DNA of 33,608 bases from a virus. The first letter of the stretch is position 1, and each line of letters opens with the position of its first letter. Positions 14,501-26,617 of this stretch are shown here, one piece after another. Position numbers and translations under genes: made by a program. The stretch lies in IMG/VR virus record IMGVR_UViG_3300006802_000285, positions 1 to 33,608 of that record; one strand, 5' to 3'. The notes under the pieces were generated by a model. It did not search any database. It was given only the letters and a program-made list of their open reading frames with translations, and was not told the origin of the DNA.

Positions 14501-14656
14501 ATGATGAAAAAAGAAATTAAATTTACCGTAAAATCTGTAGAAGATTTAAAAGCTCAAATGAGAGTCTGGGCAGACGAGAACCTACCTATTGAACATATAG
14601 AAGATACTAAATTAGCTTCTAAAATGTTAAAAGATATAGGAATTAAGGTCACGTAG
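14501..14656 (+). CDS. 51-aa hypothetical protein ending inside tRNA-Arg
   Basis: ATG ATG at 14501 opens a 51-residue frame. The peptide has a basic strand (KKEIKFTVKSV) and a helical region with acidic and aliphatic residues (DLKAQMRVWADENLPIEHIEDTKLASKML, seen in pieces). The stop TAG at 14654-14656 is the U8-A9-G10 of the tRNA, so the gene and the tRNA share ten bases. Translation would be leaderless given the promoter position. No family is recognised. Confidence 0.55.
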   Translation: MMKKEIKFTVKSVEDLKAQMRVWADENLPIEHIEDTKLASKMLKDIGIKVT

Positions 14657-14723
14657 CTCAACTGGATAGAGCAACTGACTTCTAATCAGTAGGTTGAGGG
14701 TTCGAGTCCTTCCGTGATCACCA
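14647..14723 (+). tRNA. tRNA-Arg(UCU)
   Basis: A full cloverleaf of 77 nt including an encoded CCA. The acceptor GGTCACG pairs with CGTGATC (one G-U), the D arm is GCTC/GAGC, the anticodon stem ACTGA/TCAGT has loop CTTCTAA giving anticodon TCT, and the T loop is TTCGAGT. It reads AGA, the dominant Arg codon in this phage's genes. Confidence 0.93.
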
Positions 14724-14878
14724 AATAGGCACATGAAAAGAGGTGGTAATGTATTCATGAAAAATCCTAGTGCTAGGCAGATGTGGCCCTCTACATTAGG
14801 TCGTTTGTTGCACACGTGAGATGCAAATAGGCTGGAGAGTTCTGCAGAAGCTCTCCAGCTGATTATAAAAAGTAAAGA
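14724..14878 (+). other. tRNA spacer with a stable hairpin and a possible tiny peptide
   Basis: A perfect 9-bp stem GCTGGAGAG (14831-14839) with CTCTCCAGC (14851-14859) carries an inner TTC/GAA pair on a TGCA loop, and a smaller CCTAG/CTAGG pair lies near 14767-14778. Both would form between two tRNAs in one precursor and could guide processing or act as a small RNA. A 28-codon frame (from about ATG 14734, reading MKRGGNVFMKNPSARQMWPS at its start) spans the first part but lacks a convincing ribosome-binding site. Confidence 0.4.
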
Positions 14879-14955
14879 GGGCCTGTAGCTCAATCGGTTA
14901 GAGCAGAGCGCTCATAACGCTTTGGTTGGGGGTTCGAGTCCCTCTGGGCCTACCA
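14879..14955 (+). tRNA. tRNA with CAU anticodon (Met or lysidine-type Ile2)
   Basis: 77 nt with encoded CCA. The acceptor GGGCCTG pairs with TGGGCCT, so 1-72 is G-U and C4-G69 and C5-G68 are present; the D stem is GCTC/GAGC, the anticodon loop CTCATAA, and the T arm GGGGG/CCCTC. C4-G69 and C5-G68 are bases the lysidine enzyme TilS recognises in Ile2 tRNAs, which would let it read AUA, but they do not exclude an elongator Met tRNA. It is not an initiator-like tRNA by its D and anticodon stems. Confidence 0.9.
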
Positions 14956-14969
14956 GAAAGAAAGTTATT

Positions 14970-15212
14970 ATGTATACAGTAGAGATGGAACACGATGATA
15001 TTACTATTACTATTTTAGATGATACAGGTTCTGTTCCAGACTTAGTAGTAAGTACTTATGAAGATGCTGTATATATCACTCAAGTAGATGAAAACGGTCA
15101 TGTTGAGGATTTGTTAAGTATAACTCCAGAAATGTGGGAAGAATTAATATTAGCAATAGATAGTCCAGAAGGATCTTATATCGTACAACGAAATGGCCGT
15201 GTGGTGGAATAG
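14970..15212 (+). CDS. Conserved-looking small phage protein ending inside tRNA-Leu
   Basis: 80 aa from ATG 14970, preceded by GAAAGAAAG; an upstream extension into the tRNA is a frame artefact. The protein is acidic and beta-rich (MYTVEMEHDDITITILDD, then AVYITQVDE) with a helix (PEMWEELILAID) near the end. It resembles short hypothetical proteins I recall from T4-like marine phages, but I cannot name a family. The stop TAG (15210-15212) comes from the tRNA-Leu D loop, giving an 18-nt overlap. Confidence 0.65.
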   Translation: MYTVEMEHDDITITILDDTGSVPDLVVSTYEDAVYITQVDENGHVEDLLSITPEMWEELILAIDSPEGSYIVQRNGRVVE

Positions 15213-15281
15213 GTAGACACAAGGGACTTAAAATCCCTCGCCGCTATAGGTGTGCCGGTTCGAGTCCGGCCACGGCTACCA
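15195..15281 (+). tRNA. tRNA-Leu(UAA)
   Basis: 87 nt with encoded CCA and a long variable arm. The acceptor GGCCGTG pairs with CACGGCT (1-72 is G-U), the anticodon stem GGGA/TCCC holds loop CTTAAAA giving anticodon TAA, and the T arm CCGG(T)TTCGAGTCCGG is intact. It reads UUA, the commonest Leu codon here. Confidence 0.93.
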
Positions 15282-16340: not shown

Positions 16341-17102
16341 ATGAATCGTTTATCACAAATTTTATTAACAACTACAGCTATTAGCTGTATTTCTTTTTCG
16401 GCTTTAGCCAATCCTTTATCTGGCAGTGTCGAAGTAGGAGTATCTGAAGGCTCTTCTGATGCTTGGAAAACTACTACAACTTTAGGGTTAGCTTTTGAGA
16501 CTGAAGGACTTGCTTTTGGAGGTTTTAACATTGAATCAGTAGATGAATCTAACTTTACATTAGACGAATGGAATATTGGAACTACTATTGGGCCCGTAAC
16601 TGCTTCTTTAGGCAAACAAGGAGATATTTGGGTTGGTGCAGAAGGTGAGCATACTATTGCTAATATGTCTATGGATGAAAGCTTAATTATTTCTTTAGAC
16701 TCAACATCTGCTTCTTTAGAATTTAAAGATTATAAAAATGATATTTCAGAAATAGAGTCAATTGCTCTATCTCATTCATTAAGCATTGATCCTTTAGCTG
16801 TAACTGCCGCAGTAGATTATGATCTAGACTCTGAAAATTGGACTCTAGGTGCTCGTATATCTATGGATTCTTATGGCGGTGTAGTTACCTATGGTAAAGA
16901 AGCAGAAACTATTGCTTATGAAATAGATGCTTCTATGTCTGACATTACTGTTTATGTAAATGGAGATGAAGATGAAATGTTGCGTAATATTGGAGCTACT
17001 TACGCAATGGATTTATCAGGATTAGCTATCGAACCTAAATTAAATTATGACATTGATGCGGAAGATTTATCTCCCAGCATTTCTGCTACTTTAAAATTCT
17101 AA
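16341..17102 (+). CDS. Porin-like outer-membrane beta-barrel protein with signal peptide
   Basis: 253 aa. A signal peptide (MNRLSQILLTTTAISCISFS then ALA, cleavage near residue 23 before NPL) is followed by a mature part made of alternating short amphipathic strands (SGSVEVGVSE, TTTLGLAFETEGLAFGGFNIE and similar) with acidic turns. It ends SATLKF, the terminal Phe expected for recognition by the BAM assembly machinery. No Cys occurs after the leader. It resembles small alphaproteobacterial porins, though shorter than the usual 300 or more residues. GAAGGAAGA precedes ATG. Encoded in a phage, it may change surface permeability, nutrient uptake or receptor exposure. The barrel call is from pattern, not homology. 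Confidence 0.75.
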   Translation: MNRLSQILLTTTAISCISFSALANPLSGSVEVGVSEGSSDAWKTTTTLGLAFETEGLAFGGFNIESVDESNFTLDEWNIGTTIGPVTASLGKQGDIWVGAEGEHTIANMSMDESLIISLDSTSASLEFKDYKNDISEIESIALSHSLSIDPLAVTAAVDYDLDSENWTLGARISMDSYGGVVTYGKEAETIAYEIDASMSDITVYVNGDEDEMLRNIGATYAMDLSGLAIEPKLNYDIDAEDLSPSISATLKF

Positions 17103-17167: not shown

Positions 17168-17578
17168 TTGAAAAACGTCGATTTAAACAAATACAAACAT
17201 TTTGTAGAAAAAGTAACCAGCAACGAAAGTAATGCTTTTGGAGCTATGGTTAAAAGAATGGAAACAATAAGCGATATGGAAGGAGTAAATCCTTCTTTAT
17301 TATTAACAGGAGCTATAGGAATTGCTAGTGAAGGAGGAGAGTTTGCTGAAATCGTTAAGAAATGTATCTTTCAAGGAAAGCCTTTGGATGAAAACACAGT
17401 TTTTCACGCTAAACGAGAATTGGGCGATATTATGTGGTACTGGATTAATTCATGTAGGGCTCTTAATTTAGATCCAAATGAGGTAATTTCTGAAAATGTA
17501 AATAAGTTAGAAGCCCGTTACCCTGATGGCGCTTTTAATGTTTGGTATAGTGAGAATAGACAAGAAGGAGATTTGTAA
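17168..17578 (+). CDS. mazG: MazG-like nucleotide pyrophosphohydrolase
   Basis: 136 aa. The all-alpha NTP pyrophosphatase signature is visible: SEGGEFAEIVKK (54-65, Glu55 and Glu58) and KRELGDIMWYW (82-92, Glu84 and Asp87), the ExxE plus ExxD magnesium ligands. The surrounding FQGKPL and LDPNEVISENVNKLEARYP fit MazG-like proteins of T4-like marine phages. It hydrolyses NTPs or related nucleotides, with proposed roles in clearing non-canonical nucleotides or damping the stringent response. The start is TTG 17168, chosen because the conserved N-terminal helix (KYKHFVEKVTSNES) lies between it and the first ATG. The ribosome-binding site is weak. It abuts the UDP-sugar dehydrogenase gene. Confidence 0.88.
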   Translation: MKNVDLNKYKHFVEKVTSNESNAFGAMVKRMETISDMEGVNPSLLLTGAIGIASEGGEFAEIVKKCIFQGKPLDENTVFHAKRELGDIMWYWINSCRALNLDPNEVISENVNKLEARYPDGAFNVWYSENRQEGDL

Positions 17579-18345
17579 TGTCTTCTTTAGTTTTGAGTGG
17601 TGTAGGTTTTGTAGGGTCGGCAGTCATGTCGGCCCTTAGTCATGAGTACACTATATATGTTTCAGACCCCTTAATAAATAATAAAAAAGTTTTTGATTTT
17701 GAAAGTGCAGAAGGAGTCATACTGTGCCTTCCTACCCCTGAGAAAGAAGATGGAAGCTGTGACTTAAGCTATATTGATAAAGTATTAAGTGAGTGTTATC
17801 ATAACATACCTATACTTATTAAATCAACTATGAGCTTAGAAGGGTTTAGATCTTTAAGAAACAAATACTCTTTATTATCTATAACCTTTTCTCCAGAGTT
17901 TTTAACAGCTAAGAACGCAAAAGAAGATTTTAAAAATCAGAAAATTATGTATTTTGCAGGAGATAATACTGATTTTTGGTCTTCTATTTTTTATAAAGCA
18001 ATGCCTCATTTACAAATAAGTACGCACAGTGATATTGAAACGCTCATATTAGCTAAATATTTTAGAAATTCTTTTCTGGCTCTAAAAGTAGCTTACGCTA
18101 ATCAAATGTTTGATGTTTGTAAAAAATTAAATATATCTTTTGAAGAATTAATTAATATTTTTAGGCAAGATCCTAGAATTGGTGATAGTCATACCACTGT
18201 TCCTGGCGATGATGGTAGGGGTTTTGGTGGAGCTTGCTTTCCCAAAGATACAGCAGCTTTATTATACTCAATGAAGCATTATGGTATAGATTTTTCTATT
18301 TTAAAAGAAGCAGTAAAGTATAATAATAGTATAAAGGAATTATAA
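17578..18345 (+). CDS. Short UDP-glucose/UDP-sugar dehydrogenase-like protein
   Basis: 255 aa. The NAD-binding Rossmann motif GVGFVG (8-13), the LPTPEKEDGSCDLSYI segment (51-66), SPEFL (105-109), the central helix LAKYFRNSFLALKVAYANQ (158-176) and the catalytic Cys220 in GFGGACFPKD match UDP-glucose 6-dehydrogenases, which oxidise the C6 hydroxyl to a carboxylate. Bacterial family members run to 380-450 aa and end with a second nucleotide-binding domain that is absent here. Phage homologues of similar short size are known to me, so this may be functional and not truncated. It follows MazG with a 1-nt overlap and leads into a methyltransferase gene. Confidence 0.85.
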   Translation: MSSLVLSGVGFVGSAVMSALSHEYTIYVSDPLINNKKVFDFESAEGVILCLPTPEKEDGSCDLSYIDKVLSECYHNIPILIKSTMSLEGFRSLRNKYSLLSITFSPEFLTAKNAKEDFKNQKIMYFAGDNTDFWSSIFYKAMPHLQISTHSDIETLILAKYFRNSFLALKVAYANQMFDVCKKLNISFEELINIFRQDPRIGDSHTTVPGDDGRGFGGACFPKDTAALLYSMKHYGIDFSILKEAVKYNNSIKEL

Positions 18346-18956
18346 TGTCAGGACACTATATTGAAATTAAAGGACATAAAATATTTGGATACTCTAGATA
18401 TATAAATTTTTATTCAGAAATAGTTGCTAATGCAGCAGATGGAGATTTATTTGTAGAATTAGGAAGTTTTTTAGGACAGTCTACTGCTGCAATGGGTACT
18501 TTTATAAAAGAAAGCAGTAAACGAATTGATTTTCATGCTGTAGACATATTTGAGTTATCAGATTTTAGTGATGAACCTCACTTTGAAGTTATCAAACAAC
18601 ATGGAGGAGATTTTTATAAAGTCTTTGAAGATAATCTAACAGCAGCAGAAGTTAGAGACTACGTTAATCCTATAAAGGCTACTTCTTTAGAAGCCGCTTC
18701 TCAGTACGAAGATAGAAGTATTTCTTTTTTAATGATAGATGCTTCCCATGCTTATGCCGATGTAGTAGATGACATAGAACATTGGTATCCGAAAATAAAA
18801 ATGGGAGGAATTATATCTGGAGATGACTATGATTTCGAAGAAGTAGCTAAAGCTGTAAAAGATACTTGTGGAGATAATATTAAAGTATATCCTAATACTA
18901 CTTGGTGGTTTAGAAAAAATAGACTTACTTTAGAGGAGCATAGAATTGTTGTATAA
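18345..18956 (+). CDS. Class I SAM methyltransferase, Methyltransf_24-like
   Basis: 203 aa. DLFVELGSFLGQSTAAM (34-50) is motif I, IDFHAVDIFE (65-74) the ribose-binding acidic strand, and SFLMIDASHAYADVVDDIEHW (137-157) the DxxH segment typical of Methyltransf_24. MGGIISGDDYDF follows. These enzymes usually methylate small molecules or sugars, in line with the UDP-sugar dehydrogenase immediately upstream (1-nt overlap). A target cannot be read off. Its 3' end overlaps the nuclease gene by 11 nt. Confidence 0.82.
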   Translation: MSGHYIEIKGHKIFGYSRYINFYSEIVANAADGDLFVELGSFLGQSTAAMGTFIKESSKRIDFHAVDIFELSDFSDEPHFEVIKQHGGDFYKVFEDNLTAAEVRDYVNPIKATSLEAASQYEDRSISFLMIDASHAYADVVDDIEHWYPKIKMGGIISGDDYDFEEVAKAVKDTCGDNIKVYPNTTWWFRKNRLTLEEHRIVV

Positions 18957-19368
18957 ATTTTTATTATCTTTGTTATTAATTATTATTGGTACTCCTGTAT
19001 ATTCTGAAATAAAAATGAGAGAATATAGAGATAGAGTTTGTTACGATGGGGATACTTGTTATATTATATATGAATCTTTGCCGGAAAGCTTACAAAAAAT
19101 GAGTATTAGAGTTTTAGGAATAGACACTCCTGAAATAAAAGGAAACTGCAATAAAGAAAAAGAATTAGCTTTAGAAGCAAGAGAGTTTGCTAATTCTGTT
19201 TTTAAGGCTGCTAAAAATATTGAGTTTAAAGATTTAAAATGGGATAAGTATGGGGGTAGAGTTTTATCTAATGTTTATTTAGACGGTAAACTTTACGCAG
19301 ATTTAATCATTGCAAAAGGACTAGCCAAAAGTTATGATGGTGGTAAAAAAATTTCTTGGTGTGACTAA
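18946..19368 (+). CDS. Secreted thermonuclease (staphylococcal nuclease fold)
   Basis: 140 aa, initiated at TTG 18946 seven nt after GAGGAG. A signal peptide (MLYKFLLSLLLIIIGTPVYS) precedes an SNase domain with the calcium and catalytic residues in place: DGDT (34-37), RVLGIDTPE (55-63; Arg55, Asp60, Glu63) and DKYGGRVL (Arg105), then GLAKSYDGGK. It should cut DNA and RNA in the periplasm or outside. Export of a nuclease by a phage could supply nucleotides from extracellular DNA or destroy incoming phage DNA. Three Cys in the mature part may form a disulfide. Confidence 0.88.
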   Translation: MLYKFLLSLLLIIIGTPVYSEIKMREYRDRVCYDGDTCYIIYESLPESLQKMSIRVLGIDTPEIKGNCNKEKELALEAREFANSVFKAAKNIEFKDLKWDKYGGRVLSNVYLDGKLYADLIIAKGLAKSYDGGKKISWCD

Positions 19369-19394
19369 CACTTTTTATTATTAAGGAGAGGTAA

Positions 19395-20363
19395 ATGGAA
19401 CTACTCACGCTATGGAGTCTTGTGGGCTTTTTACTTGCTGCGTATGCAGTTATAGCAAACGATTCAGTACAAACGCTCGGTACATGGATGGCATCAAACA
19501 ATGAGCGATTCAACTACAAAATCTTATGGGGATCAGCATCGGCAGTGCTACTAGCTACCCTATGGTATGGTTGGAGTGTAAATGGGGGAGACATTTCATA
19601 CGGACGATTAAATAAAATACCCTGGCAAGAGGTTCAGTGGTATCATGCTGCTGCTCCTGCAATTTTGGTGGCGCTAACTCGACTTGGAGTTCCAGTATCA
19701 ACTTCATTTCTAGTTCTATCAGTATTTGCAAGTACATTTGTTCTTGAGAAGATGTTGATGAAATCTATTATGGGTTATGGTGTTGCCGCTGCATTTGCTT
19801 ATGCTGTGTGGTTTGCAATTAATAAGTATGCCAACAAGTGGTTTGATGAGACACAACCTGTCAGTGAAGATAATAAACGGTTCTGGCGAATTGCACAGTG
19901 GGTTGCTACTGGTGGGTTGTGGTGGACTTGGTTATCACATGATATGGCAAACATAGCGGTATTCTTACCACGTCAAGTACCAATAGACCTTATGATTATG
20001 ATTTCAGTTGTATTTGTTGCAGGATTGTTCTTTATGTTTAGAGAACGTGGTGGTAGAATCCAACAGATTGTATTGGAGAAACACAACACACGTTATGTGC
20101 GTAGTGCAACACTGATCGACTTGTTCTATTGGTTGTGCTTGTACTTCTTTAAGGAACTGAACGACATTCCAATGTCAACAACATGGGTGTTCGTAGGCTT
20201 GTTAGCAGGTCGTGAGCTTGCAATGGCTACTTACTTTGGTAAGAAGAAAACCAAATCAGTGTTTCCACTTGTGGCAAAAGACTTTGGTAAGATGATGGTA
20301 GGATTAGGTACATCAGTAGCTCTTGTATTAGCAATTCATTATATTATACTACCTGTAAGTTGA
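19395..20363 (+). CDS. Pit/PHO4-family phosphate permease-like protein
   Basis: 322 aa, about nine hydrophobic segments. The Pit/PHO4 inverted repeat is recognisable: ANDSVQTLGT (21-30) and SHDMANIAVFLP (181-192) stand for the two GANDVAN motifs, and GVPVSTSF (98-105) and IPMSTTW (248-254) for the two P(V/I)STTH motifs. It would import inorganic phosphate with a cation. It has an excellent AAGGAGAGG site. The composition is foreign: Arg uses many CGN codons while neighbours use AGA, and hand-counted lines have 25-26 G+C per 60 against about 18 in an upstream gene. This points to recent acquisition. The Pit call is from motif pattern; it is shorter than bacterial Pit proteins. Confidence 0.78.
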   Translation: MELLTLWSLVGFLLAAYAVIANDSVQTLGTWMASNNERFNYKILWGSASAVLLATLWYGWSVNGGDISYGRLNKIPWQEVQWYHAAAPAILVALTRLGVPVSTSFLVLSVFASTFVLEKMLMKSIMGYGVAAAFAYAVWFAINKYANKWFDETQPVSEDNKRFWRIAQWVATGGLWWTWLSHDMANIAVFLPRQVPIDLMIMISVVFVAGLFFMFRERGGRIQQIVLEKHNTRYVRSATLIDLFYWLCLYFFKELNDIPMSTTWVFVGLLAGRELAMATYFGKKKTKSVFPLVAKDFGKMMVGLGTSVALVLAIHYIILPVS

Positions 20364-20372
20364 TAATTTACA

Positions 20373-20597
20373 ATGAGATTCAGAGCTATTATAATGTTAC
20401 ACAAAGGAATATTAGATAATGCAGGATCTGCTGTAACTAATGCTCTTCACTCTTTAGGTTTTGATTCTGTTTTAGATACTAGAATAGGCAAAACTTTAGA
20501 GTTCTCTGCTTCTTCTTTTGAAGAAGCAGAGCGTATGATTAAGACTCAAGTAAATGAAGTAATGGAATATTATACTATTGAGCAGCTAGAGGATTAA
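20373..20597 (+). CDS. purS: PurS subunit of formylglycinamide ribonucleotide amidotransferase
   Basis: 74 aa. FRAIIMLHKGILDNAGSAV, then ALHSLGFDSVLDTRIGKTLEF and a closing acidic helix, reproduces the PurS pattern (KPGVLDPQG, LGF...VR.GK). In bacteria PurS joins PurL and PurQ in the fourth step of purine synthesis. PurL and PurQ are not in the window, so it would act with host proteins or phage genes elsewhere. Purine genes are known auxiliary metabolic genes of marine T4-like phages. It starts nine bases after the permease stop but has the AT-rich composition of the phage, not of the permease. Confidence 0.85.
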   Translation: MRFRAIIMLHKGILDNAGSAVTNALHSLGFDSVLDTRIGKTLEFSASSFEEAERMIKTQVNEVMEYYTIEQLED

Positions 20598-21222: not shown

Positions 21223-21498
21223 ATGGCTAAAAGAAAAGGTGGAAAATCTAAAGGTAATGTATCTGCGGGAATTCACTCTAATGTTAGTGGGGCTATTCGT
21301 AGAGATATGCGTAATGCGTATCTTTCTTCTGGCGAACGTATTATTAACCAAATGAAAGCTTTGCGTCAAGGAAAACGAGTTATGGTAACTATTCCTAATC
21401 CTAATACGAATGAAACTAATAAGCCTTTTATTCGTGTTCCTGCTCAGCAAGCCGGTTGGAAAGTGCCAGGAGCTTCTTACGCAAAACAAGGAGCTTAG
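21223..21498 (+). CDS. Basic hypothetical protein
   Basis: 91 aa, strongly basic at the N-terminus (MAKRKGGKSKGN), with a helical centre (SGAIRRDMRNAYLSSGERIINQMKALRQGKR) and a Pro/Asn-rich strand region (VMVTIPNPNTNETNKPF). It has its own good promoter and an AAGGAAC site, implying substantial expression. Composition would suit a DNA-binding or virion-internal protein. I do not recognise the family. Confidence 0.65.
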   Translation: MAKRKGGKSKGNVSAGIHSNVSGAIRRDMRNAYLSSGERIINQMKALRQGKRVMVTIPNPNTNETNKPFIRVPAQQAGWKVPGASYAKQGA

Positions 21499-21500
21499 TT

Positions 21501-21698
21501 TTGAATTTATTTGAGTTCAAAGACGTATTATATATGAGTGTGCTTGTCTTAGCTTGCTGGTACTCTTATAAAAAAGGCTTCATGGAAGGCTTAGAGAACG
21601 GAGTAGATAAATCTTTACTCTTTCTAAATAAAAAAGGATATATTACTCTTACTAGAGACGCTAATGGAGAAATCATAGAGTTCGAAAGTAAAGATTAA
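21501..21698 (+). CDS. Small single-span membrane protein, TTG start
   Basis: 65 aa. AAGGAG (21488-21493) lies seven nt before TTG 21501, which is therefore preferred over ATG 21534. A transmembrane helix (VLYMSVLVLACWYSY, about 9-23) leads to a short basic turn and a polar C-terminus (KGYITLTRDANGEIIEFESKD). It sits two genes before the endolysin, so a lysis-accessory role (spanin or pinholin-like) could be considered, but no hallmark is present. Confidence 0.6.
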   Translation: MNLFEFKDVLYMSVLVLACWYSYKKGFMEGLENGVDKSLLFLNKKGYITLTRDANGEIIEFESKD

Positions 21699-23503: not shown

Positions 23504-26500
23504 ATGGCCGTTAATTTTCCAGACTCTCCTTCTAATGGAGACTCATTTAGTGTAAATGATACTACTTATGTATATAACGCTACTGCGGGTTACTGGGATA
23601 TAACGTCTACAGTACAAGTTAGTGCTAGTACTAGTACTAATGCACCTTCTAACCCTTCTTCCGGAGATCTTTGGTTTGATCCATCATCTCTTACTACTTA
23701 TATTTACTATAATGACGGTACTAGCTCTCAATGGGTACCGGCAAACTCTGTAGGTGCTAGAGGTCCTGCAGGTCCAGGGTATCCTACTGCTTATTATTCT
23801 GCAGACTATACAAGTACAAGTACTGGAAATGTAGTTTTTAATGCTAATAGTACCCCAAGTTTAGCTTCTTATTCAATAGGAAAAGTTAATGTTTGGGTAA
23901 ATGGAGTACTAAGATCTGACTTTATTGCTTCTGATGGTTCTAATGTAGAGATAGCTTTATCTACAGGAGATGAAGTTAAAATAGTAAACTTCGGAGATAC
24001 AGATGTTTTAGATGTTACAGCTTCTTCTAATGATTATGCAACTTATACCTCTTTAACTTCTAATGATTATTCAACCTATACTACACTATCTAGTTTAATA
24101 GATACTGTTCAATCAAATGTTAGCTCAGGCGGATCAGGAGTGGTAGTTTATGCTACTCCTGATCTTTTGCCTTTATCGGGTAACGATGCAGGAGATCAAG
24201 CGTATGTTAGTTCTACAAATAGGCTTTATATTAACACTGGTAGTGGGTGGTATTCTATTGGTTTGGTAAATACTAATCCAAATATTACTTCAGTACAAGA
24301 TGCTAATGGAGGAGTTTCGCCTTTTGTATTGTCAAGTAGTGGGACAGCTACAGTTATTACAATAACTGCTAGCGATCCTGAAGAAGTACCTCTAACTTAT
24401 AGTTACGCTGTTACAAGTGGATCACTAACTAATGGAGGAGGTACTACTGCAACAGTAGCACAAGGTACTGGCGCTAATACTAATCAGTTTACCATTACTC
24501 CAACTACTAATGCTTATTATGGAGGCACATTTAACTTAACATTTACAGTTAGTGACGGCGTAAACACTTCTACTAGTGCTAATGTGTTTACCTTACAATT
24601 TACTATACCAAATAGTAAATACACAACTTTATTAGCAACAGCAGTTGATACATCTGACAACAATAACATAACTGATTCATCAACAAACAACCACACGGTT
24701 ACGGTTAATGGGGATGCTCATGCTGGTACTTTTAGCCCTTATCGGCATGGTGGATATAGTACTTATTTTGATGGCACTGGGGATTATATTACAGCCCCTC
24801 CCAATACAAGTTTCGACTTTGGTACTGGTGATTTCACAATTGAAGCTTGGATTTATCCAACAGCACTATCAGGTAATCATCTAATAGTTGATACTTATGT
24901 ATCAGGAGATAACGGTAGTTTTCAGTTATATTGGAGAAGCACTGGCAACTCATTAGCATTTTATACTCCAGGCGATGGTGTATTTTTACAGGATCCTAGC
25001 AGTTCAAATATAGTTGTAAATACTTGGAATCATGTCGCTGTATCTAGATCAGGCACATCAGCCAAATTATTTGTAAATGGTACAGTAGTTGATACTATTA
25101 CTAATAGCAGAGATTTAACTCATGGAAATACATTAGCAGTCGGCGCACAAATCGCCACAGGCACTAATTATTTTTCTGGGTTTATAACTGATGTGCGTAT
25201 AGTAAAAGGTACGGCCGTCTACACTTCCACTTTTACTCCACCAACAGAACGACTCACATCAATCACCAATACTAGCCTACTCACTTGTCACCTGCCATAC
25301 ATTGCTGATGGATCAACTAACGATCACACAATTACAGTAAACGGTAATACTTCAACAAAACCATTCGGCCCTTATGATTACGAAGAATACGCATCAAGTG
25401 ACAACGGTGGGTCTGTGTACTTTGATGGGAATGGGGATTGGCTTAGAGTACCTGATAGCACCGATTGGGATCTAGACAACACGTCTAACTGGACTGTGGA
25501 AGGATGGTTTTATCGTACATCAAATTCAGGCGAGGCTTATTTGTTGGCACAGGGCGAACAAGCCATAAACGGTAATTATGTAAGCAACATCATTGCTTTA
25601 TCAAACACTTCAACTATTGCTGTAAATTCAATAATGATGCAAGTTTATAACTCTGGTAACCGAGTTGTTTTAACCACTCCTGCAAATAGTATAAAAGTCA
25701 ATCAATGGCATCATCTAGCTGTTCAGTATAGTTCGTCAGCGGGCTGGTCGATTTACCTTGATGGTAAAGACCAAACTCTTACAGCTTTGTCAGGCACCGA
25801 TTCAGCAAGTAGTACAACTTGGGGTTGGACAAACAGTGGATTACCCTCTGGTCCACTATATATTGGCACACGGTCCTACAACCAAGGGGCAGATGGTTAT
25901 GTCGATGGTTATTTGTCGGATTGGAAATGGACACCATCCGTTCAATATAGTTCAAACTTTACACCCCCAACTTCACCTTCTTCGTCTACGAATGCTTTAT
26001 TTCACCTCAAAGGCACTGACGCTTCGATCATAGATAAATCTCAGACTAACAACCTAAAACTTTTTGGAAATACTACTGGCTCTACAACTGAAGTTAAATT
26101 TGCTGGTTCTAAGTCAATGTATTTTGATGGTAACGGAGATAGAATTAATCTCGATGCAAACAACTCTTTATATGACTTATCTTATGGGCAAGGCGATTTT
26201 ACTATTGAAGGCTGGTTTTATTTCAATAGTCACTCTAACGACACTAAGTTATACATTGATGTTGCTAGTGCTACAACATACTGGCAGTTGACTTATTGGG
26301 TAAGTACAGGATTAAAATTTAGTGCAAACGTCACAGGTATAAATGTTGATGCAGGAAGTACATTATCTTTAAATACTTGGTATCATATTGCTTTAGTGCG
26401 TAACAGCAGCACCTACAATGTTTATGTTGATGGCACTAGTGTTATTAGTACGACAACTACACATCAAATTGGGAGCAATAGCGAAAAAGCTATAGGGGGT

Positions 26501-26617
26501 ACCGCATTGGATGCGACAGCTAGTTTAGATGGTTACATTCAAGACTTCCGCCTCACCAAAGGTCTCGCAAGATACACTGCAAACTTTACACCACCAATAG
26601 CACCGTTTGCAGGTTAA
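23504..26617 (+). CDS. Tail fibre/adhesin with cadherin-like and three LamG domains
   Basis: 1037 aa. A head module (MAVNFPDSPSNGDSFSVNDT, then VYNATAGYWD) recurs in the neighbouring genes. It is followed by a second similar module (NPSSGDLWFDPSS), a short collagen-like GARGPAGPGYP (84-94), a display module near 212-265 (LPLSGNDAGDQAYVSSTNRL, then GSGWYSI), and a cadherin-like beta domain (about 265-368). Three LamG/concanavalin-A-like domains follow, opening at about 419 (YFDGTGDYI), 637 (YFDGNGDWL) and 872 (YFDGNGDRI), each with FTIEAW or TVEGW and a DGY..D closing strand. Such domains bind sugars, so this is probably a receptor-binding fibre. It has no signal peptide. The LamG parts share long DNA blocks with the next genes. 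Confidence 0.82.
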   Translation: MAVNFPDSPSNGDSFSVNDTTYVYNATAGYWDITSTVQVSASTSTNAPSNPSSGDLWFDPSSLTTYIYYNDGTSSQWVPANSVGARGPAGPGYPTAYYSADYTSTSTGNVVFNANSTPSLASYSIGKVNVWVNGVLRSDFIASDGSNVEIALSTGDEVKIVNFGDTDVLDVTASSNDYATYTSLTSNDYSTYTTLSSLIDTVQSNVSSGGSGVVVYATPDLLPLSGNDAGDQAYVSSTNRLYINTGSGWYSIGLVNTNPNITSVQDANGGVSPFVLSSSGTATVITITASDPEEVPLTYSYAVTSGSLTNGGGTTATVAQGTGANTNQFTITPTTNAYYGGTFNLTFTVSDGVNTSTSANVFTLQFTIPNSKYTTLLATAVDTSDNNNITDSSTNNHTVTVNGDAHAGTFSPYRHGGYSTYFDGTGDYITAPPNTSFDFGTGDFTIEAWIYPTALSGNHLIVDTYVSGDNGSFQLYWRSTGNSLAFYTPGDGVFLQDPSSSNIVVNTWNHVAVSRSGTSAKLFVNGTVVDTITNSRDLTHGNTLAVGAQIATGTNYFSGFITDVRIVKGTAVYTSTFTPPTERLTSITNTSLLTCHLPYIADGSTNDHTITVNGNTSTKPFGPYDYEEYASSDNGGSVYFDGNGDWLRVPDSTDWDLDNTSNWTVEGWFYRTSNSGEAYLLAQGEQAINGNYVSNIIALSNTSTIAVNSIMMQVYNSGNRVVLTTPANSIKVNQWHHLAVQYSSSAGWSIYLDGKDQTLTALSGTDSASSTTWGWTNSGLPSGPLYIGTRSYNQGADGYVDGYLSDWKWTPSVQYSSNFTPPTSPSSSTNALFHLKGTDASIIDKSQTNNLKLFGNTTGSTTEVKFAGSKSMYFDGNGDRINLDANNSLYDLSYGQGDFTIEGWFYFNSHSNDTKLYIDVASATTYWQLTYWVSTGLKFSANVTGINVDAGSTLSLNTWYHIALVRNSSTYNVYVDGTSVISTTTTHQIGSNSEKAIGGTALDATASLDGYIQDFRLTKGLARYTANFTPPIAPFAG
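24612..24760 (+). repeat. DNA-level repeat shared by three adhesin genes (first copy)
   Basis: About 150 nt encoding NSKYTTLLATA, then DSSTNNHTVTVNGDAHAG and SPYRHGGYS, recur with few changes at about 27256-27405 and 30511-30660, always between the cadherin-like domain and the first LamG domain. A second shared block of about 85 nt encoding GTDASIIDKSQ, then NTTGSTTEVKFA recurs near 26017-26110, 28655-28748 and 31910-32003. These are recombination-prone islands in otherwise divergent genes. Confidence 0.85.

Follow-up and report, generated by a model that had tools for sequence, protein, structure and literature searches.

A divergent PiT-fold permease of marine phages: putative role in phosphate uptake, exchange between phages and a predicted porin partner

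Described systems and the phage locus

The PiT/PHO4 family (PF01384, TCDB 2.A.20; TmPiT, 6L85) shares with the phage permease that was the focus of this study the fold, an internal duplication, the signature aspartates and the serines of the P-V-S-T motif. On the other hand, the permease was too diverged to be assigned by Pfam alone, carried Gln in place of the second Asn in the first signature, was shorter (322 vs ~400 amino acids in TmPiT), and formed a phage clade of its own. Prasinoviruses and coccolithoviruses also carry a PiT gene thought to aid phosphate supply in infection, but they are viruses of eukaryotes and their PHO4 is of the algal type (Monier et al. 2012, PMC3429862). The same study reported one clone from the Pacific, derived from a phage, with a PHO4 branching near HIMB59, which possibly belongs to the permease clade; it was the only phage PiT gene found in the literature searched, which covered few subscription journals, and as far as this literature shows, neither the permease clade, nor its exchange, nor its link to a porin has been described. 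Among cyanophage genes, pstS is likewise widely carried for phosphate acquisition, but encodes a periplasmic binding protein that uses the host ABC transporter, whereas the present gene encodes a complete permease. Its mode of evolution resembled that of cyanophage psbA/psbD, which are strongly conserved genes of cellular type swapped between phages by recombination, although the function differs and the search of cellular genomes yielded no close copy in a host.

The gene is located in the window, i.e., the entire virus record analysed here (33,608 bases), a bona fide genome of a phage (a virus of bacteria) with endolysin, baseplate-like and MazG genes; terminases were found in four large relatives. 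The permease and its surroundings are as follows.

18946-19368, + strand: staphylococcal-nuclease-like gene directly upstream of the permease (PF00565, 1.3e-8), with an apparent signal peptide
19381-19394, + strand: ribosome-binding site of the permease, TTAAGGAGAGGTAA, taken from the sequence itself
19395-20363, + strand: permease ORF, ATG to TGA, 322 amino acids with ~10 long helices, a putative divergent PiT/PHO4-type phosphate permease
20373-20597, + strand: purS (FGAM synthase subunit), the next gene after the permease (PF02700, 3.7e-13; GC3 of 0.20, typical of the phage)

We propose, at a probability of roughly 0.7, that the product is a PiT-type phosphate:cation symporter of the inner membrane, from a divergent clade specific to phages, and that its allele was gained by homologous exchange from another phage and not straight from a cell. 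Expressed in infection, it would provide the host cell with additional, constitutive uptake of phosphate and feed phage DNA synthesis, acting beside purine and nucleotide genes of the phage (purS and MazG in the window; in other phages, PRPP synthase), while a phage-encoded 16-stranded porin, present here and in several other phages, would pass phosphate across the outer membrane. What substrate is carried, in which direction and with which ion, when the gene is expressed and whether the porin cooperates with it are given as we infer them.

A Shine-Dalgarno-like AAGGAGAGG was found directly 5' of the permease ATG. The GC3 of the gene was 0.34, compared with 0.24 expected from its own amino acids and the codon usage of the window (z = 5.7), which was the most extreme value among the 42 genes in the window (GC3 of ~0.19). 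Arginine was encoded by CGN in 10 of 12 cases and by AGA in the other two, the reverse of most neighbours, in a genome that mostly uses AGA and encodes its own tRNA-Arg(TCT). The first-pass annotation had described a composition unlike that of all neighbours; this was borne out by GC3 and the arginine codons, but not by overall G+C, since the 41% of the permease, partly an effect of its amino acids (16 Trp), was close to the values at 21223-21498 (40%) and in the tail genes (38-39%). The adjacent purS was phage-like, as had been stated. Three tRNA genes, Arg(tct), Met(cat) and Leu(taa), were located at 14647-15281, and the first of these matched the AGA usage of the phage, not the CGN usage of the permease. 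A short ORF at 21456-21698 was a second compositional outlier (GC3 of 0.36, z = 4.1) and, unlike the permease, was near-identical in the sister phage L002. The nuclease-like product of 18946-19368 is possibly periplasmic.

Family, motifs and cellular contexts of the permease

When analysed as a single protein, the permease of the window matched no Pfam, PHROG or NCBIfam model. PDB sequences were matched neither by the protein itself (phmmer) nor by the family profile; only the comparison of folds was successful. PF01384 (PHO4) was matched weakly by 12 of the 13 members of the family alignment, which was built with relatives on viral and bacterial contigs (best E-value of 2.7e-7), while the gathering score of 33.7 bits was reached neither by the window protein, which gave no match, nor by the best viral relative (26.7 bits). 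Because 12 of 13 members still match weakly, this failure is a sensitivity limit of the model. Alignment of the family profile with canonical PiT by hhalign gave a probability of 95.5% (E-value of 1.6e-8), and the AlphaFold (AF2) model of the permease (pLDDT of 81.8, pTM of 0.82) matched TmPiT, a Na+/phosphate transporter (6l85), in a Foldseek search of the PDB (probability of 1.00, E-value of 6.8e-5, TM-score of 0.66-0.68 by query), this being the only significant match to a solved fold. As judged by profile alignment and the predicted structure, the permease belongs to the PiT/PHO4 fold, in a highly divergent clade. The family assignment in the first-pass annotation was thus upheld by the alignment of the family and by the predicted fold, but failed in direct profile searches of the single protein. 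The duplicated motifs that it had pointed out were present in a diverged form.

19452-19484, + strand: first PiT signature, IANDSVQTLGT (residues 20-30; Asp23 at 19461-19463), aligned by hhalign to GANDVAN of TmPiT
19686-19706, + strand: first P-V-S-T motif, GVPVSTS (residues 98-104; Ser102 at 19698-19700), aligned to PVSTT of TmPiT
19935-19958, + strand: second PiT signature, SHDMANIA (residues 181-188; Asp183 at 19941-19943), aligned by hhalign to the second GANDVAN of TmPiT
20166-20183, + strand: second motif of this type, P-M-S-T, IPMSTT (residues 258-263; Ser261 at 20175-20177)

Asp23, Ser102, Asp183, Asn186 and Ser261 were invariant in an alignment of 31 relatives. The Glu of TM2 that is critical in human PiT2 (E55) was not found in helix 41-62 of the window permease; since canonical SAR11 PiT also lacks this residue, it is not universal. 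The critical serines of PiT2, S113 and S593, presumably lie in the P-V-S-T motif. In PiT2, both signature aspartates are critical for phosphate transport, and critical serines have also been reported (PMC3126765). CysP, a sulfate transporter within the PiT family, has its signature aspartates replaced (Gly/Asn in the B. subtilis protein; PMC5840216), and this type of loss was absent from the permease. Therefore, by the criterion of these two studies, phosphate is the likelier substrate than sulfate, as far as the sequence can indicate.

The genes surrounding the cellular homologues also bear on the substrate. In four gammaproteobacterial MAGs, the permease had a 10-bp overlap with a porin gene (of the Porin_4 family in L087), at L094 it was 3 bp from a Porin_O_P gene (annotated as phosphate-selective), and in a SAR11 MAG it adjoined PhoU_div and a canonical PiT. 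In HIMB59-like cells (L090:378-7862), the permease followed genes for an ABC transporter, an FAD oxidoreductase and an HAD hydrolase, for which Pfam gave general families only, and which we take to resemble a 2-aminoethylphosphonate cluster.

A PiT-fold transporter of another oxyanion, such as sulfate (like CysP), arsenate or phosphite, would be in keeping with the presence of CysP in the family, with the distance of this clade from characterised PiT proteins, below the PHO4 cut-off, and with those cellular copies that adjoin unrelated genes. Sulfate is abundant in seawater, and its uptake would offer little gain to a phage. Given, in addition, the invariance of both aspartates that CysP has lost, and cellular neighbours that include PhoU_div with a canonical PiT and the Porin_O_P gene, we consider a substrate other than phosphate unlikely.

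Viral clade, selection and exchange between phages

Close relatives of the permease were encoded on at least 592 IMG/VR contig stretches in one scan, and the family-wide scan of IMG/VR likewise gives a lower bound. Searches of INPHARED by tblastn, in a set from which close relatives of the window may be missing, yielded no match with either the window permease (E-value of 1e-5) or a bacterial homologue (E-value of up to 1). All of the 39 viral permeases sampled formed one clade (support of 100/98), with the bacterial homologues, of limited sampling, outside. The closest cellular homologues were at most 62% identical in 754 genomes of two proteobacterial classes (385 and 369) and a scan of genome contigs. 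Matches of 82-93% in the genome search all came from one Rhodobacteraceae bin, Water_Bin34, and were counted as phage because their contigs have a gene order in common with viral contigs (L082 compared with L079); L081, L082 and L083, which carry the phage permease in a phage-like gene order, are probably of phage origin and were binned with a bacterium. When the viral loci whose flanks could be used (125) were grouped by gene neighbourhood, 7 to 37 groups resulted, according to the strictness of sharing, and 17 when approximately two neighbouring families had to be shared. Several carriers were large T4-type phages, with a clamp loader, UvsX-like and SbcC-like genes and terminases. The terminase model PF03237 missed several of the large records.

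Between the window permease and phage copies outside its own species, dS was more than 1 and often near saturation, with dN of 0.05-0.10; over all comparisons, dN was ~0.02-0.10, dS ranged from 0.65 to saturated, and omega between phages was ~0.03-0.07. Saturated dS together with low dN and omega indicates long residence in phages under strong purifying selection. A degraded permease gene was ruled out by the omega values.

In five pairs of phages, the permeases were 68-78% identical while the large terminases were only 23-32% identical; in one more closely related pair, the values were 66 and 56%, respectively. Between the window and L002, two members of the same phage species, dS was 0.00-0.25 in neighbouring genes and 0.65 in the permease, and nucleotide divergence rose from ~1-3% to 14% across the permease and dropped again within 1-2 kb. 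A divergence peak centred on the permease is the pattern that homologous replacement of an allele should leave. Another variable spot, apart from the permease, was found at 23504-26617, where a large tail/baseplate-like protein was 56% identical to its L002 counterpart between flanking genes of 95-100%; this is probably a hot spot of host recognition.

The nearest permeases (95% amino acid identity) were encoded by phages such as L005 and L074, the flanks of which matched the permease in composition (GC3 of 0.35, CGN of ~0.7). Since these flanks share the GC3 and CGN usage of the gene, a phage of this composition is a sufficient donor, and the foreign composition of the permease fits transfer from phage to phage. 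In the lineage of L005, L007, L008 and L074, the GC3 and arginine usage of the permease were equal to those of the flanks, so that long-resident relatives with normal codon use, which the first-pass annotation had named as evidence against a recent acquisition, do exist.

Recent capture of the phosphate permease from a cellular host, as that annotation had supposed, would account for the outstanding GC3 and arginine codons in the window genome and for the permease GC3 above that of the flank in most carrier phages (mean of +0.07). However, the single viral clade, with bacterial homologues falling outside it in the tree, the absence of any cellular copy above 62% identity in the genomes searched, the nearest relatives in phages of matching GC3, the saturated synonymous sites and the strong purifying selection make such a capture very unlikely. 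The permease looks, from these comparisons, to be long resident in phages, with a phage-to-phage exchange of the allele as the recent event. An auxiliary metabolic gene for phosphate uptake is accordingly retained from the earlier annotation in that the gene is carried by phages and a role in phosphate supply is plausible, but not as a recent gain from a cell.

Predicted porin and neighbouring genes

An ORF that the first-pass annotation had not mentioned was recognised here for the first time as a putative porin.

16341-17102, + strand: predicted outer-membrane porin of 253 amino acids, with a signal-like helix at residues 3-20, ~16 predicted strands and a C-terminal Phe (AF2 pLDDT of 79.7)

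The signal peptide was judged by eye. No Pfam, PHROG or NCBIfam model matched the ORF, and a search of INPHARED, with the limit on close relatives given above, gave no match. Foldseek aligned the model with trimeric general porins, V. cholerae OmpU and the porin of Rhodobacter blasticus (probability of 1.00, E-value of 1.6e-8), with which the ORF also shares the signal-like helix, the number of strands and the terminal Phe, but from which it differs in being phage-encoded and having no detectable sequence family. The model therefore predicts a 16-stranded porin.

Homologues of the porin were 28-35% identical, with closer ones in sister phages, and those of phages were located on the same strand as the permease, at most three genes away, on either side and in several unrelated arrangements. 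This applied to 20 of the 26 permease loci holding a porin, while the porin of the window was five genes from the permease. Within the fetched flanks, 151 of 177 permease loci held no recognisable porin. In a search starting from the porin, 11 of 70 loci held a permease in the fetched flank, as did 11 of the 32 records with a porin that were searched over their full length, a set that includes records already known to hold it and does not give a clean rate. Both values were far above the IMG/VR-wide rate of the permease (hundreds in 2.9 million contigs), and are inflated by shared ancestry. The porin as an obligate partner was unsupported: in addition to the 151 loci with none nearby, 21 of the 32 porin records, many of them fragments, were without a permease. 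We propose the porin as the outer-membrane partner of the permease, and the cellular and phage gene contexts make both a phosphate role and this partnership plausible.

The same pair of genes may instead alter the cell surface or membrane, i.e., serve superinfection exclusion, receptor masking, phosphate efflux or ion balance and not phosphate supply. Porins are common phage receptors and their replacement is a known route of exclusion, and the fast divergence of the porins (33-35% between phages) beside a conserved permease would be in line with such a role. However, the permease retains the transport residues of PiT under very strong purifying selection, and the pair also occurs in cells, where exclusion is no motive; we regard this explanation as improbable, and favour phosphate supply.

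Other genes recurred near the viral permeases. The window encodes a short (255 amino acids) nucleotide-sugar dehydrogenase-like protein at 17578-18345, relatives of which (~250 amino acids) were found at most five genes from the permease in 40 viral loci. An esterase/lipase-like gene on the opposite strand (L180:2313-3191 and relatives) was near the permease in 61 viral loci, and PRPP synthase (L054:7721-8707 and relatives) in 27, placing phosphate uptake beside a phosphate-consuming step of nucleotide synthesis.

A broader reading, which we hold tentatively and at slightly less than even odds, is that marine phages carry a two-membrane module for phosphate acquisition, in which a phage-specific PiT clade and a phage porin copy the permease-porin operon of cells, that unrelated phages pass the permease to each other through the exchange of alleles, in the manner of psbA, and that it was overlooked because Pfam and PHROG models are blind to it. 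Phage production over much of the ocean is considered to be phosphorus-limited, and counts of phage genes for phosphate usually cover pstS, phoA and phoH. Since a complete permease is present on at least several hundred IMG/VR contigs and is missed by the usual profile libraries, such counts are incomplete. That unrelated phages exchange it suggests that phosphate supply in infection is under strong selection, and should the porin partner prove real, phages would remodel how nutrients enter the infected cell across both of its membranes.
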